Assembly (NCBI RefSeq): GCF_900104605.1
Contig: NZ_LT629960.1
Span: forward strand, 558,001-622,000
Origin: Tidjanibacter massiliensis
Lineage (GTDB): Bacteria; Bacteroidota; Bacteroidia; Bacteroidales; Rikenellaceae
Direction of reading: 5' to 3'
DNA: 64,000 nt
Positions 20,815-26,237 of the stretch are shown here, piece after piece (position 1 is the first letter of the stretch; every line of letters starts with the position of its first letter). The position numbers and the translations under genes were made by a program. The notes under the pieces are model-generated. The model did no database searches. It was not told the origin of the DNA and saw nothing but the letters and a program-made list of their open reading frames with translations.

Positions 20815-21726
20815 ATGGGCATATTGGGATATACAATCCTCACGCTATGCGTGCTGGGTGTACTCTGCGCATTGATATTGTATTTCGTGGCGCAGAAGTT
20901 CAAGGTGTATGAGGACCCGCGTATCGACGATGTCGAAAAGATGTTGCCGGGGGCCAACTGCGGCGGCTGCGGTTATGCCGGTTGCCGTACTTTCGCCTCC
21001 ACCGCGGTCGGTGTGGACGATATGTCCGGATTGTTCTGCCCGGTGGGCGGTGCGGAGACCATGAAGCGTATCGCCGATTTCCTCGGGAAGGCGGCGCCGG
21101 AACGGGAACCGATGGTGGCCGTACTGCGCTGCAACGGTTCGCAAGCCAACCGGCCTCGGAACAGTGTCTATGACGGTGCGTCGTCGTGTGCCGTGGAGGC
21201 GGCGCTCTATGCCGGTGAAACGGGATGTGCGTTCGGCTGCCTCGGCAAGGGCGACTGCGTGGCCGTCTGCAATTTCGATGCGCTGCATATGGACCCGGAA
21301 ACGGGACTGCCGGTCGTGGACCAGGAGAAATGTACGGCCTGCGGAGCATGCGTGAAGAAGTGCCCGAAGATGCTTTTTGAACTGCGTAAGAAGGGGCCGC
21401 ATGACAGACGGGTTTATGTAGCCTGTATGAACCGGGATAAGGGCGGAGTTGCCCGCAAAAGCTGTACGGCTGCCTGTATAGGGTGCGGGAAGTGTGTCAA
21501 GGCATGTCCTTTCGATGCCATAACGCTGGTGAACAACCTGGCATATATCGATTTCAACAAGTGCCGTCTGTGCCGGAAGTGCGTGCCGGAGTGTCCGACG
21601 GGAGCCATACACGACGTGAATTTCCCGGCTCCCGCACGGAAAGCGGAGGCTGTCGCCGACCTGTCGTCCGTGCGGCCGGCCTCGGCGGCGAAAGAGCCGG
21701 AACAGCCTGGAAAATCAGAGAATTAG
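20815..21726 (+). CDS. rnfB: Rnf complex iron-sulfur subunit RnfB
   Basis: A 303-residue subunit of the membrane ferredoxin:NAD+ oxidoreductase. It has an N-terminal membrane anchor (1-25), the [4Fe-4S] motif C49-x2-C52-x4-C57-x17-C75, and then four ferredoxin-like Cys clusters between 138 and 265 (CTACGACVKKCP, CIGCGKCVKACP, CRLCRKCVPECP). It accepts electrons from ferredoxin. The Ala/Pro/Glu-rich tail after 270 looks unstructured. Confidence 0.95.
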   Translation: MGILGYTILTLCVLGVLCALILYFVAQKFKVYEDPRIDDVEKMLPGANCGGCGYAGCRTFASTAVGVDDMSGLFCPVGGAETMKRIADFLGKAAPEREPMVAVLRCNGSQANRPRNSVYDGASSCAVEAALYAGETGCAFGCLGKGDCVAVCNFDALHMDPETGLPVVDQEKCTACGACVKKCPKMLFELRKKGPHDRRVYVACMNRDKGGVARKSCTAACIGCGKCVKACPFDAITLVNNLAYIDFNKCRLCRKCVPECPTGAIHDVNFPAPARKAEAVADLSSVRPASAAKEPEQPGKSEN

Positions 21727-21739
21727 AAATCCTACGAGT

Positions 21740-23077
21740 ATGTTGAAAACATTTCCCATAGGCGGTATTCATCCGTCGGACAGTAAGATAAGTCGGGACT
21801 GCCCCATCGAGACCATGCCCCTTCCGGAGACGGTGACGATACCTTTGTCGCAGCACATCGGAGCCCCCGCCGAAGCGGTGGTGACGAAGGGCGAACGGGT
21901 ACGTACGGGGCAGTTAATAGGCAGGAGTACCGGATTCGTTTCGAGCAACATACATTCCTCTGTCACGGGAACGGTCACGGCCGTCGACAGCTATCTCGAC
22001 CCGGCGGGCTTGCGTCGGCCGGGAGTGACGATAAAGACGGAGCCGGACGAATGGATGGAGGGCATCGATACGAGCGACAGGATAATACGCGAATGCACTC
22101 TTTCGCCGCAGGAGATAGTCGCCAAAGTGGGGGCTGCGGGAGTCGTAGGCATGGGTGGGGCTACCTTTCCTACTCAGGTGAAGCTTTCCGTTCCGGATGG
22201 CAGGAAGGCGGAGTTCCTCATTATCAATGGAGTGGAGTGCGAACCTTACCTGACGGATGACTATCGGGTGATGCTCGAACGCGGCGAGGAGCTGCTGACG
22301 GGTATCCGGATTCTGGCCCGTGCTCTCGGGGCGGAACGAGTAATGGTCGGCATAGAGAACAACAAGCCGGAAGCCATCGGGTCGCTTCGGCAGCTTGCGG
22401 CCGTTTCGGCCCCCGAGGTGGAGGTCGTGCCCCTGAAGGTACAATATCCGCAAGGGAGCGAGAAGCATCTGATAGCGGCCCTGACCGGAAGGGAGGTGCG
22501 GAGCGGCGGCCTGCCCATCGATGTGGGAGCCATTGTCCAGAATGTGGGTACCGCGCTGGCGGTGTATGACGCAGTACAGAAAAACAAACCGTTGATAGAG
22601 CGCGTCGTGACGGTGACGGGGCCTTCGCTCGTCCGCCAGGCCAATCTGAAGGTTCGGATTGGAACGGCTGTTTCGGAATTGCTGGATTACTGTGGTGGTC
22701 TGCCTGCCGATACGGGCAAAGTGATTGCTGGCGGCCCCATGATGGGCAGGGCCATGGCGCACCTCGGTGCTCCGGTGGTGAAAGGAATGTCGGCCGTTCT
22801 GGTGTTGCCCGAAAGCGCATCGCGGCGCATGCCGGAGCAGTCATGTATCCGCTGTGGCAAGTGCGTGAGCGTGTGTCCGATGGGACTGGAGCCCTATCTG
22901 CTCTCCAAACTTTCACAGAAAGCGGTCTGGGACGAAGCCGAGGCACACCGTGTGACCGACTGCATCGAGTGTGGTTCGTGTTCCTGGAAATGTCCTTCGG
23001 CACTGCCCCTGCTGGACTATATCCGGCTCGGCAAAACGGAGGTGATGAAGATAATACGTTCCCGGAAGGGACGGTAA
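21740..23077 (+). CDS. rnfC: Rnf complex NADH-binding subunit RnfC
   Basis: A 445-residue RnfC with the FMN/NADH-binding domain of the NuoF type (GAAGVVGMGGATFPTQVKL, then VECEPYLTDDYR) and two C-terminal [4Fe-4S] clusters (CIRCGKCVSVCP near 368, CIECGSCSWKCP near 407). It is the cytoplasmic site of NAD+ reduction. It begins 13 bases after rnfB; a 100-base gap separates it from rnfD. Confidence 0.95.
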   Translation: MLKTFPIGGIHPSDSKISRDCPIETMPLPETVTIPLSQHIGAPAEAVVTKGERVRTGQLIGRSTGFVSSNIHSSVTGTVTAVDSYLDPAGLRRPGVTIKTEPDEWMEGIDTSDRIIRECTLSPQEIVAKVGAAGVVGMGGATFPTQVKLSVPDGRKAEFLIINGVECEPYLTDDYRVMLERGEELLTGIRILARALGAERVMVGIENNKPEAIGSLRQLAAVSAPEVEVVPLKVQYPQGSEKHLIAALTGREVRSGGLPIDVGAIVQNVGTALAVYDAVQKNKPLIERVVTVTGPSLVRQANLKVRIGTAVSELLDYCGGLPADTGKVIAGGPMMGRAMAHLGAPVVKGMSAVLVLPESASRRMPEQSCIRCGKCVSVCPMGLEPYLLSKLSQKAVWDEAEAHRVTDCIECGSCSWKCPSALPLLDYIRLGKTEVMKIIRSRKGR

Positions 23078-23177
23078 CGGCGGAAGCGGCGGCTTTTTCC
23101 GTTCCGGTGACGGTTTCGTTCCGACCGGGAAGAAGACGCTGCGAGGTTCGGTTGAAAAGAAGAGAAACGAAATCGAT

Positions 23178-24158
23178 ATGGATAAGAATTTGATTGTTTC
23201 ACCCTCTCCGCATGTCCACGGACAGCAGACTACGTCGCGGCTGATGCTCGATGTGGTGATTGCGCTGCTTCCGGCGCTTGCGGTATCCACATGGGTGTTC
23301 GGGTTCAGCGTGTTGTTGGTGACATGCACATCGGTGGCCTGCTGCGTGGTGTTCGAGTACCTTATACAGCGTTTTCTGCTGCGCGGACCGCTTACGGTCA
23401 ATAACTGGTCGGCTGTCGTGACGGGGATGCTGCTGGCTTTCAATTTGCCCTCGTCCATTCCGCTGTGGATGGTCGCCGTGGGGGCGCTCGTGTCGATAGG
23501 TGTCGGCAAGATGACCTTCGGAGGCCTCGGTAAAAATCCCTTCAATCCGGCGCTTGTGGGGCGTGTCTTCATGCTGCTCTCTTTCCCGGTGGCGATGACC
23601 ACTTTCCCTGAAGTGGCCGATGCCGCTACGGGGGCCACGCCGCTCTCCGCAATGAAGGGGGCGTTGGCCAGCGGGATGACCGTACCGGAGGCGATGCGGA
23701 TGTTCAGCTACCAGGACCTGCTGGTCGGTTTCAAGAGCGGTTCGTTCGGTGAGGTGTCCGCCGTGGCGCTGCTGCTCGGTTTTGTCTGGCTGCTCGTGCG
23801 CAGGGTGATAACGTGGCGTATTCCGGTCTATGTGCTCGGTACCATGGCGCTCTTCACCGGTATTCTCTGGGCCGTGAATCCCGACCAGTACATGAGCCCC
23901 GTATTCCATCTGCTGACGGGCGGTGCGCTGCTCGGAGCCATCTTCATGGCGACCGATTATGTGACTTCCCCCATGACCAATCGCGGAATGTTGCTCTACG
24001 GTATCGGTATCGGGGCTATTACGGTCTTGATACGTATCTGGGGACAGTATCCCGAAGGGATGTCGTTCGCCATCCTCATCATGAACGCTTTCGTCCCCCT
24101 GATAGACAAATATGTGAAACCACGCCGCTTCGGTGCGGTCAGAAAAGCGAGGGCCTGA
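23178..24158 (+). CDS. rnfD: Rnf complex membrane flavoprotein RnfD
   Basis: A 326-residue integral membrane subunit with about ten helices. The covalent FMN site fits D148-A-A-T-G-A-T154, so Thr154 is the expected ApbE target. NNWSAVVTGMLLAFNLP is the usual flavin-domain segment. It passes electrons between RnfC and RnfG and helps couple them to Na+ or H+ transport. rnfG follows after 5 bases. Confidence 0.95.
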   Translation: MDKNLIVSPSPHVHGQQTTSRLMLDVVIALLPALAVSTWVFGFSVLLVTCTSVACCVVFEYLIQRFLLRGPLTVNNWSAVVTGMLLAFNLPSSIPLWMVAVGALVSIGVGKMTFGGLGKNPFNPALVGRVFMLLSFPVAMTTFPEVADAATGATPLSAMKGALASGMTVPEAMRMFSYQDLLVGFKSGSFGEVSAVALLLGFVWLLVRRVITWRIPVYVLGTMALFTGILWAVNPDQYMSPVFHLLTGGALLGAIFMATDYVTSPMTNRGMLLYGIGIGAITVLIRIWGQYPEGMSFAILIMNAFVPLIDKYVKPRRFGAVRKARA

Positions 24159-24163
24159 CAGTT

Positions 24164-25039
24164 ATGAAAAGTTCTCTGGTAAATATGGTCGTGGTGTTGC
24201 TGGGCATCACTGCGGTCACCTCCTCGGCGGTCGGACTGGTGTACCGTGTGACGGAGGCGCCCATCGCTCAGGCGAAACTGCACAAAAAGGCGGATGCACT
24301 GGCACAGGTACTCCCGCCGTTCGATAATACTCCCGCCGACGAGATGCAGGCCGTAGCGGCAGGCAATGATTCGGTGTATGTCTATACGGCCCGGATGGGA
24401 CAGACTGTGGCCGGCTATGCGGTGGAAAGTTTCGCTTCCGGTTTCGGCGGCCCAATCCGGATAATGGTAGGTTTCGGACCCGACGGCAGGATACGGAACA
24501 TACAGGTGTTGGAACAGACGGAGACTCCGGGTCTCGGGGCGAAACTCGCCGAGGAGGGCAATCCTGTCCAGGCAAGTCTTCTCGGCAAAAGTCCGGCGGA
24601 GGTGAAGATGTCCGTGCGTAAGGACGGAGGCGATATCGATGCGATAACCGCTTCCACGATATCCTCCAGGGCCTATATACAGGCAGTCAGCCTCGCTTAT
24701 ACCGCGTTCCTCGAGGTGAGCGGGGCGGATGCTTCGGGCTGGGACGCTTCGAGCGGGGCAACATCGTCGCGGCAGGTGCGGGAAGAGGAAGCCGCAACGT
24801 CGGATTCGGCGAGCGGTGCTACCGGCCGGAACGAAGAGGCGGATACCGCCTCGGGAGCGACTCCGTCGGCAGACACGGAGGCCGGAACGGATACGGAGTC
24901 TGCTTCTGCGGGTGCTGTCGGCGATACGGTCTCCGGAGCCACGCTGCAGACGGAGAACACCGATGTCTCGTCGGGCGCCACATCTTCCTCTGCGAATCAT
25001 GTTTCGGGTGATAACGAACAGAAAGGGAAACGGCAATGA
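24164..25039 (+). CDS. rnfG: RnfG with a tail of five extra flavinylation motifs
   Basis: A 291-residue RnfG: one N-terminal helix, a periplasmic FMN-binding domain, and the usual Bacteroidetes site D159-A-I-T-A-S-T165 for covalent FMN. Family members normally end soon after this domain. Here about 100 residues of Ser/Thr/Ala/Asp/Glu-rich, probably disordered tail follow, with five exact copies of DxxSGAT ending at Thr200, Thr220, Thr233, Thr260 and Thr273. This is the recognition pattern of the flavin transferase ApbE. If used, RnfG would carry up to six covalent FMN. The frame is open upstream to 23813 but that part overlaps rnfD; ATG 24164 is the start. The stop overlaps the rnfE start (ATGA). 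Confidence 0.93.
   Translation: MKSSLVNMVVVLLGITAVTSSAVGLVYRVTEAPIAQAKLHKKADALAQVLPPFDNTPADEMQAVAAGNDSVYVYTARMGQTVAGYAVESFASGFGGPIRIMVGFGPDGRIRNIQVLEQTETPGLGAKLAEEGNPVQASLLGKSPAEVKMSVRKDGGDIDAITASTISSRAYIQAVSLAYTAFLEVSGADASGWDASSGATSSRQVREEEAATSDSASGATGRNEEADTASGATPSADTEAGTDTESASAGAVGDTVSGATLQTENTDVSSGATSSSANHVSGDNEQKGKRQ
24743..24982 (+). repeat. Five degenerate repeats encoding DxxSGAT in rnfG
   Basis: Motif starts are Asp194, Asp214, Asp227, Asp254 and Asp267, with Thr-to-Thr spacings of 20, 13, 27 and 13 residues. Codons for S-G-A-T differ between copies (AGC GGG GCA ACA in the first), so the motif is conserved at protein level rather than as recent identical DNA copies. Confidence 0.9.
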
Positions 25040-25623
25040 AAAGATTCAATATACTGCTGAAGGGAATTATCAGGGAGAATCCTACCTTCGTGTTGATACT
25101 GGGTATGTGTCCCACGCTGGGAACCACCACTTCGGCTATCAACGGGGCGGGCATGGGCATAGCCACCATGTTCGTACTCATCATGTCGAACATCGTCATT
25201 TCGCTCATCAAGAACCTGATACCCGACAAGGTGCGTATTCCGGCATTCATCGTTGTGATAGCCTCGTTCGTGACGGTTATCCAGCTTCTGATGGAAGCCT
25301 ATGTACCGTCGCTTTACGAGACGCTGGGAGTATTCATTCCCCTTATCGTCGTGAACTGCATTATTCTCGGCCGCGCCGAAGCGTTCGCGTCCAAACACAA
25401 CGTGTTGGATTCGGCACTCGACGGTTTGGGCATAGGGCTCGGTTTCACCCTGTCGCTGACGGTCATCGGTGCGGTGAGGGAGATACTCGGCAGCGGTTCG
25501 GTTTTCGGATACAAATTCATCGAGGGTGACGGTATGATTGCCTTCGTGCTCGCTCCGGGAGCTTTCCTCGTGCTGGGATACCTGATGGTATTGTTCAATA
25601 AGGCGACAGCCCGACTGCGATAG
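25036..25623 (+). CDS. rnfE: Rnf complex membrane subunit RnfE
   Basis: A 195-residue protein with six predicted helices, of the RnfA/RnfE-NqrD/E family (NPTFVLILGMCPTLGTTTSA with the conserved membrane Cys; LIVVNCIILGRAEAFASKHN with the second). It translationally overlaps rnfG by 4 bases. It forms, with RnfA, the membrane pair that holds the [2Fe-2S] centre and cation path. Confidence 0.95.
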   Translation: MKRFNILLKGIIRENPTFVLILGMCPTLGTTTSAINGAGMGIATMFVLIMSNIVISLIKNLIPDKVRIPAFIVVIASFVTVIQLLMEAYVPSLYETLGVFIPLIVVNCIILGRAEAFASKHNVLDSALDGLGIGLGFTLSLTVIGAVREILGSGSVFGYKFIEGDGMIAFVLAPGAFLVLGYLMVLFNKATARLR

Positions 25624-25664
25624 ACGGTCGTCCGGCGATGTTTAAGGATTAAAAACAAGAACAG

Positions 25665-26237
25665 ATGGAATATTTTGCAATCATAATCGGGGCGATTTTC
25701 GTCAATAATGTCGTGCTGGCCCAGTTTCTCGGCATATGTCCGTTTCTGGGTGTGTCGAACAAGGTGAATACCTCGCTCGGCATGGGGGCGGCGGTGGTGT
25801 TCGTCATGGCCATCAGCTCCATCGTGGTATATCTGCTGCAATACTATGTACTCGTGCCGCTTCGCATAGAGTACATGCAGACTATTGTTTTCATCCTCGT
25901 GATTGCGGCTCTTGTGCAGATGGTCGAGATAATTCTCAAGAAGATAAGTCCGGCACTTTATCAGGCACTCGGCATCTTCCTGCCGCTCATCACGACCAAC
26001 TGTGCCGTGCTCGGCGTAGCGATACTGCTCGTGCAGAAGAATTACAATCTGCTCCAGTCTTTTACCTATGCCGTGTCCACTGCGGTGGGGTTCGCCCTTG
26101 CACTGGTCGTCTTTTCGGGCATCCGAGAACGGCTTGAGCTCAACGACGTACCCAAGGCGATGCGGGGCGTGCCCGTGGCGCTCGTCACGGCCGGTATTTT
26201 GGCCATGGCATTCATGGGGTTTGCTGGACTGGTATAG
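25665..26237 (+). CDS. rnfA: Rnf complex membrane subunit RnfA
   Basis: A 190-residue inverted-topology partner of RnfE (NNVVLAQFLGICPFLGVSNK and LITTNCAVLGVAIL, each with the conserved Cys). It is the last gene of the operon and is followed by a strong terminator. Confidence 0.95.
   Translation: MEYFAIIIGAIFVNNVVLAQFLGICPFLGVSNKVNTSLGMGAAVVFVMAISSIVVYLLQYYVLVPLRIEYMQTIVFILVIAALVQMVEIILKKISPALYQALGIFLPLITTNCAVLGVAILLVQKNYNLLQSFTYAVSTAVGFALALVVFSGIRERLELNDVPKAMRGVPVALVTAGILAMAFMGFAGLV

Follow-up and report, generated by a model that had tools for sequence, protein, structure and literature searches.

The RnfG protein encoded in the analysed window (the whole 64,000-nucleotide stretch of Tidjanibacter massiliensis DNA) carries five ApbE-type motifs on a C-terminal tail that is predicted to be disordered, in addition to the canonical site of its single FMN-binding domain. 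Judging by the surveyed sequences, a single tail motif is common in RnfG of Bacteroidales, with several copies in Tidjanibacter and some other genomes. These motifs are very probably natural flavin tags, and the cell probably flavinylates the tail threonines.

The RnfG of the window and its tail motifs

The rnf operon of the window (20815–26237) is standard, with the gene order B-C-D-G-E-A and all genes on one strand: rnfB (20815..21726, +), rnfC (21740..23077, +), rnfD (23178..24158, +), rnfG (24164..25039, +), rnfE (25036..25623, +), and rnfA (25665..26237, +). RnfD has an ApbE-type motif of its own, DAATGAT, from window position 23619, and the ATG of rnfE overlaps the rnfG stop codon. The word ATGA at the rnfG stop is seen in 51 of the 256 RnfG genes surveyed below, the window included, and ribosome-site-like words directly precede this stop in 167 of the 256 (region 25010–25040 in the window); both are raw counts. 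Many RnfG tails end with KGG..NE or similar, and these ends may encode the ribosome-binding site of rnfE.

The rnfG product (291 aa) consists of an N-terminal membrane helix, one FMN_bind domain, and a C-terminal tail, as seen from the translation, PF04205, TIGR01947, and an AlphaFold2 model. It scores 144 bits with TIGR01947, above the curated cut-off of 102, and matches PF04205 (FMN_bind) in a single stretch, residues 93–179; its nearest named relatives are Tidjanibacter records of the family Rikenellaceae. The canonical ApbE site, D159AITAST165 (24638..24658, +), lies where the terminal helix begins, and D159, T162, and T165 are invariant among 69 aligned RnfGs. The AlphaFold2 model, built on an alignment of 69 RnfGs, contains a helix at residues 5–49 and the terminal helix at 163–186. 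From the N-terminus to residue 190, mean pLDDT values per block are 88–98, with two lower blocks (79 for residues 121–130 and 66 for 151–160); in the tail they drop to 68 for residues 191–200 and then to 44–58 per block of ten. Due to these low values behind the terminal helix, the tail (approximately residue 191 to the end; 24734..25036, +) is predicted to be disordered, which agrees with the disordered, Ser/Thr/Asp/Glu-rich tail proposed by the first-pass annotation; its composition is rich in Ala, Ser, Thr, Asp, Glu, and Gly.

The five tail motifs, all on the plus strand, are DASSGAT (Thr200, 24743..24763), DSASGAT (Thr220, 24803..24823), DTASGAT (Thr233, 24842..24862), DTVSGAT (Thr260, 24923..24943), and DVSSGAT (Thr273, 24962..24982). 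All five have Asp six residues ahead of Thr and match the ApbE-substrate pattern D-x-x-[S/T]-G-A-[S/T]; the near-miss TESASAGAV is left out of the count. The translation thus bears out the earlier description of a normal site at D159...T165 followed by five exact DxxSGAT copies, each with Asp. When the 104-residue tail is shuffled 200,000 times, the mean is 0.018 motifs and the maximum is 2, versus 5 observed. The codons of the copies differ, as also claimed previously for the SGA-T part, and a tandem-repeat scan at min_score 30 reports none in this region, so the five motifs do not stem from a fresh DNA duplication. The first motif, common to all six aligned tailed genomes of the genus, has Trp directly before its Asp in all six (24740–24763 in the window), while overall Trp is found at this place in just 8 of 141 tail motifs; such a Trp might stack on the flavin.

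The DNA form of the motif, GAYNNNNNNWSNGGNGCNAC, has 11 matches in any frame of the 2.39-Mb genome: five in the RnfG tail, one each in RnfD (DAATGAT) and NqrB (DGFSGAT), two without Ser/Thr at the site, and two in open frames of 105 and 197 aa that are putative genes. RnfD and NqrB are classical ApbE targets. FMN attachment on RnfD is described in PMC11889175, as far as the consulted part of that paper goes.

Distribution, conservation, and turnover of the motifs

We collected RnfG sequences from 60 relatives, 23 genus genomes, 150 family-sample genomes, 394 phylum-sample genomes, and 80 named loci. From the phylum sample, 30 loci were taken in from 51 matching genomes; the family-sample loci are those among the matches listed, part of which were taken in. 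The 300 loci yielded 293 open reading frames, 289 with a recognisable canonical site (the pattern misses 4 of 293, which are dropped from the counts), and finally 256 distinct complete RnfGs, 245 with one canonical site and 11 with two. Also dropped were identical duplicates and L004, L026, and L135, whose frames run off the locus; L004 has five strict tail motifs ahead of its locus end. One protein, L127, was tallied as single-site in spite of its two domains, hence the corrected numbers are 244 and 12, and totals based on 245 include it. The tail was defined as starting 23 residues after the canonical Thr.

In the 245 single-site RnfGs, which come from Bacteroidota, the core [ST]GA[ST] occurs 148 times in 122 tails, versus 4.0 expected from 1000 shuffles, and the strict motif D..[ST]GA[ST] occurs 106 times in 89 tails, versus 0.28 expected. 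The last four letters of the 148 cores (S/T, G, A, S/T) are fixed by definition, and the sole strong further position is −6, with Asp in 106 of 143 core motifs and Asn or Glu in 22 more; Asp at this position, as in the ApbE motif, favours ApbE-type sites. Positions −7, −5, and −4 show a weaker preference for small residues, and little is seen downstream of the motif. The rearranged core [ST]AG[ST] never occurs in the tails, and other letter orders are rare or absent unless overlapping the motif. The first tail Thr/Ser is 33–35 residues past the canonical Thr in 91 of the 122 proteins.

The core is present in 122 of the 163 tails of at least eight residues and absent from the other 41, six of which have a looser form; the tail is shorter than eight residues in 82 of 245 RnfGs. 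Given these short tails and core-free longer tails, the motif is dispensable. By origin, the core is seen in 85 of 134 RnfGs from the window genome, the genus, and the family sample (among the matches listed), in 8 of 25 labelled as the same order, 28 of 60 named Bacteroidales, 1 of 11 named Marinilabiliales, 0 of 1 Flavobacteriales, 0 of 1 without ranks, and 0 of 24 labelled as the same class or the same phylum. Further named records with one motif are Parabacteroides distasonis (DGLTGAT), Phocaeicola massiliensis (DGASGAT), and Bacteroides finegoldii (DTVSGAS); L305 and L306, whose tails are not parsable, are left out of this set. The tail core is absent from RnfG of E. coli K-12 and Monoglobus. 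A tail motif as such is therefore no peculiarity of the window RnfG, one such motif being common in the order.

For the conservation analysis we used 53 disjoint pairs of relatives. Identical residues occupy 229 of 289 motif positions versus 843 of 1465 other tail positions, and the ratio of synonymous to non-synonymous codon changes is 112:52 in motifs versus 234:515 elsewhere in the tail. The residue-matched control (Asp, Ser, Thr, Gly, and Ala, with Ser equated to Thr, in both directions) shows the same trend, with 482 of 548 residues kept in motifs versus 886 of 1519 in the rest of the tail, and codon changes of 222:76 versus 306:500; positions and directions are not independent here, hence Fisher values are merely indicative. 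When the two Ser/Thr positions of the motif are pooled, 90% of 230 comparisons retain the residue, versus 49% of 489 for other tail Ser/Thr. The homologue search suggested by the first-pass annotation thus came out in favour of motif conservation beyond that of the remaining tail, and we conclude with high confidence that, at the level of sequence, the ApbE-type tail motifs are under selection in many related bacteria.

Copy number is variable. At least two cores are found in 16 of the 256 RnfGs; tails with three and four cores come from a different genus of the family (L170, L187), and one with three from a different family of the order (L136). Parsimony on a FastTree tree built from 252 core domains gives a minimum of 25 state changes for motif presence, 10 for having multiple copies, and five for having two domains, these figures being counts without a shuffled-label baseline. 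Within the genus, core counts are 5 in the window genome, 4 in G010, 3 in G014, and 1 each in G006 and G015, and the respective strict counts are 5, 3, 1, 1, and 1; in G001 the gene runs off the locus after five strict motifs. The expected conservation in close relatives holds for the first copy, kept in all six aligned genus tails, and fails for later copies, which vary and are in part decayed (DTVTRAT, DTHTGAI); between the window and its nearest relative, 20 of 25 motif residues are kept. The remaining genomes of the genus group have no tail motif; they carry either a second domain or a Cys-rich tail, or have a tail that is minimal or missing. The variation and decay of later copies, together with these motif-free genomes, argue against a fixed need for every copy.

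The Cys-rich tails, of the form CG.C...C...C...CKH, are seen in L017, L018, L019, and L023 (genomes G012, G017, G009, and G013) of the window's genus group, and Phocaeicola massiliensis (L303) has a longer Cys-rich tail after its DGASGAT motif; these are perhaps metal-binding or redox tails. Also, NqrC in the genus group is of two types, one with 76–78% identity to that of the window genome (G001, G006, G014, G015), and the other, comprising the other matches, with 45–51%. RnfG tail motifs in the group accompany the first type, except in G010, for which the NqrC search gave no match; NqrC of G002 is of the first type (74% over a fragment), and RnfG of G002 has no tail motifs.

NqrC, the paralogous periplasmic flavin subunit, served as a control (51 of 60 genomes matched; 30 loci taken, 28 parsed). 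Its tail has at least eight residues in 19 of 28 proteins and is rich in small and acidic residues, and the core is found in just one of 28 (DAASGAT in L316, genome G026). We therefore reject the motif as a general habit of Rnf/Nqr tails. An in-frame second FMN_bind domain is present in RnfG of L009, L013, L015, L020, L022, L025, L042, and others, from the genus and the family. Behind the last domain of two-domain RnfGs the core is seen in 0 of 12, versus 122 of 244 single-domain proteins, a statistic weakened by the relatedness of the sequences; this fits the second domain and the tail motif being alternative routes to an extra flavin in this position.

The genome of the window has one ApbE gene (PF02424, 250.7 bits), for which the first-pass annotation proposed to look, and two FMN_bind proteins, RnfG and NqrC. 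In the family sample, ApbE matches are found in 145 of 150 genomes and in 102 of the 103 genomes at least 90% complete; G486 and G497 have no match, although their RnfGs (L218, L210) carry tail motifs, and are drafts 87 and 80% complete.

Possible role of the tail and its alternatives

According to the part of a recent review that we consulted (PMC12052999), the seven-residue motif D-x-x-[S/T]-G-A-[S/T] suffices for ApbE, as the earlier proposal of a sufficient short motif had it; terminal tags work best, typically with full incorporation, and replacement of Asp had minor effects in one target. As a terminal motif of this length suffices, the RnfG tail sites should be good ApbE substrates. RnfG is described as mobile, with an exposed FMN shuttling between the RnfA/E centre and RnfD (PMC9588780, PMC11889175); by the published topology, the tail sites would lie outside the cytosol. 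The working range of Rnf is given as approximately −500 to −300 mV (PMC9588780), while free FMN is at −207 mV and a multi-FMN protein at −184 mV (PMC10339131). Hence, a tail flavin near −207 mV would more likely let electrons leave downhill than move them towards NAD.

We consider it probable, by a small measure, that the disordered tail bears up to five extra FMNs that take electrons from the RnfG FMN and hand them on to acceptors in the periplasm or envelope. In such a mechanism, ApbE would attach up to five FMN to the tail threonines, besides the FMN of the normal domain; the tethered, solvent-exposed tail flavins would collide with the exposed FMN on the mobile RnfG domain, pick up its electrons, and deliver them to these acceptors, forming a downhill exit from the Rnf path. 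The first tail site, at a near-fixed distance, would be the usual contact, and extra copies would extend reach or capacity. A coarse random-chain estimate, intended as a plausibility check only, places neighbouring flavins within 14 Å in 12, 8, and 5% of conformations at spacings of 13, 20, and 27 residues, respectively. Our confidence in the electron-exit role of the tail is moderate.

Other roles for a flavinylated tail have to be weighed against this one. The tail FMN might act inside Rnf, either as a bridge connecting the iron-sulfur centre of RnfA/E with the FMNs of RnfG and RnfD or as an electron store. The mobility of RnfG, with gaps to the RnfA/E centre of more than 20 Å and 29 Å in the two resolved states described in the available parts of PMC11889175 and PMC9588780, and the near-fixed spacing of the first site (33–35 residues, 91/122), which suits a defined partner, are consistent with this; however, an exposed FMN near −207 mV, above the NAD couple, would lose energy conserved by Rnf, and the multiplication of copies is left unexplained, so that we regard an internal relay as unlikely. 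The tail flavins might instead be an oxygen sink or an electron spill-over that protects the anaerobe, with no dedicated partner: a multi-FMN protein in its reduced state is readily oxidised by dioxygen (PMC10339131), but this reaction would generate periplasmic reduced oxygen species, and we find this role quite unlikely. Finally, the motifs could dock or recruit ApbE to secure flavinylation of RnfG and RnfD, the tail flavin being a by-product. One ApbE gene must indeed serve RnfG, RnfD, NqrB, and NqrC in this genome; yet half of the examined RnfGs and 27 of 28 NqrC proteins manage without the motif, and docking alone should not need the acceptor Ser/Thr, which is nevertheless kept (90% of 230 versus 49% of 489), although docking via the active site could still require it. 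Overall, ApbE docking seems very unlikely.

The remaining explanations assume no function of the motif as a flavin site. The tail could be a Bacteroidota-type linker, rich in Ser/Thr and O-glycosylated, with SGAT incidental; the sequon, as given in the consulted part of PMC8550257, is D(S/T)(A/I/L/V/M/T), and three of the five window motifs start with it (DSA, DTA, DTV). It fits, however, just 15 of the 106 strict tail motifs, the SGAT part lies outside the sequon and is far above chance, and NqrC tails of like composition lack the motif in 27 of 28 cases. We reject the sequon as the cause of the motif (15/106) and hold the linker reading to be highly improbable; glycosylation may occur besides. 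That the motifs are functionless products of chance in low-complexity sequence, or of recent DNA repeat expansion, might be suggested by the richness of the tail in Ala, Ser, Thr, Asp, Glu, and Gly and by the varying copy number. The expectations, 0.018 versus 5 motifs in the window tail and 0.28 versus 106 across tails, and the motif codons, which differ between copies and are more conserved than the rest, reduce its probability to next to nothing; shuffles, rearranged 4-mers, codon differences, and conservation together lead us to reject chance and a DNA-repeat origin.

Relation to known systems and significance

RnfGs with several FMN-binding domains (multi-flavinylated) and a proposed second electron path are reported in the consulted part of Meheust et al. 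(eLife 2021, PMC8238504). Like these proteins, the window RnfG is expected to bear covalent FMN at more than one site; unlike them, it combines a single domain with bare seven-residue tail motifs. With its one FMN_bind stretch it falls outside the definition used there (more than one FMN-binding domain), and may work like a multi-flavinylated protein all the same; relatives with two FMN_bind domains exist within the same genus. The first-pass annotation knew of no description of such an RnfG: this stands for motif-only tails, as far as could be searched, since we found no description of motif-only repeated sites on an RnfG tail in the open-licence literature, but not for multi-flavinylated RnfGs as such.

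Other known systems share some features with the tail, as far as the consulted parts of the papers describe them. FMN_red proteins have an unstructured C-terminal extension with one or two ApbE-like motifs, and candidates were flavinylated in vitro (Huang et al., mSystems 2024, PMC11334425); their tail site adjoins a conserved flavin-binding site, whereas the RnfG tail belongs to a membrane pump subunit and has up to five sites. The Flavin-tag (Tong et al., 2021, via PMC12052999) is likewise a terminal seven-residue D-x-x-[S/T]-G-A-[S/T] substrate of ApbE, but is engineered, while the putative tags of the RnfG tail are natural, repeated, and conserved. SaFMN3 and CbFMN4 (BBA Adv 2023, PMC10339131) have several covalent FMNs on flexible linkers, as predicted for RnfG; their flavins sit in folded domains and outside Rnf, those of RnfG would sit on a disordered tail.

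More broadly, and tentatively, as we rate it somewhat short of probable, the ApbE-decorated disordered tail with several FMNs could be a redox polymer, that is, a tethered flavin shuttle of the Rnf pump, by which Bacteroidales, including common gut genera, would send ferredoxin-derived electrons to the periplasm or beyond, with the RnfG C-terminus as an evolutionary socket that accommodates an SGAT tail, an additional FMN domain, or a Cys-rich tail. Should the sites be flavinylated, a second RnfG flavin would be common in Bacteroidales, and surveys counting FMN-binding domains would have missed domain-free covalent flavin sites; electrons would then be seen to travel along a disordered chain decorated with cofactors. 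Flavinylation would also raise the question of which partner on the periplasmic side is reduced by Rnf. For Bacteroides thetaiotaomicron, a growth medium selective for Rnf is described, as is a gut phenotype of Rnf, in the available part of PMC12718326, hence this question would be open to genetics, if its RnfG has a site like that of B. finegoldii.
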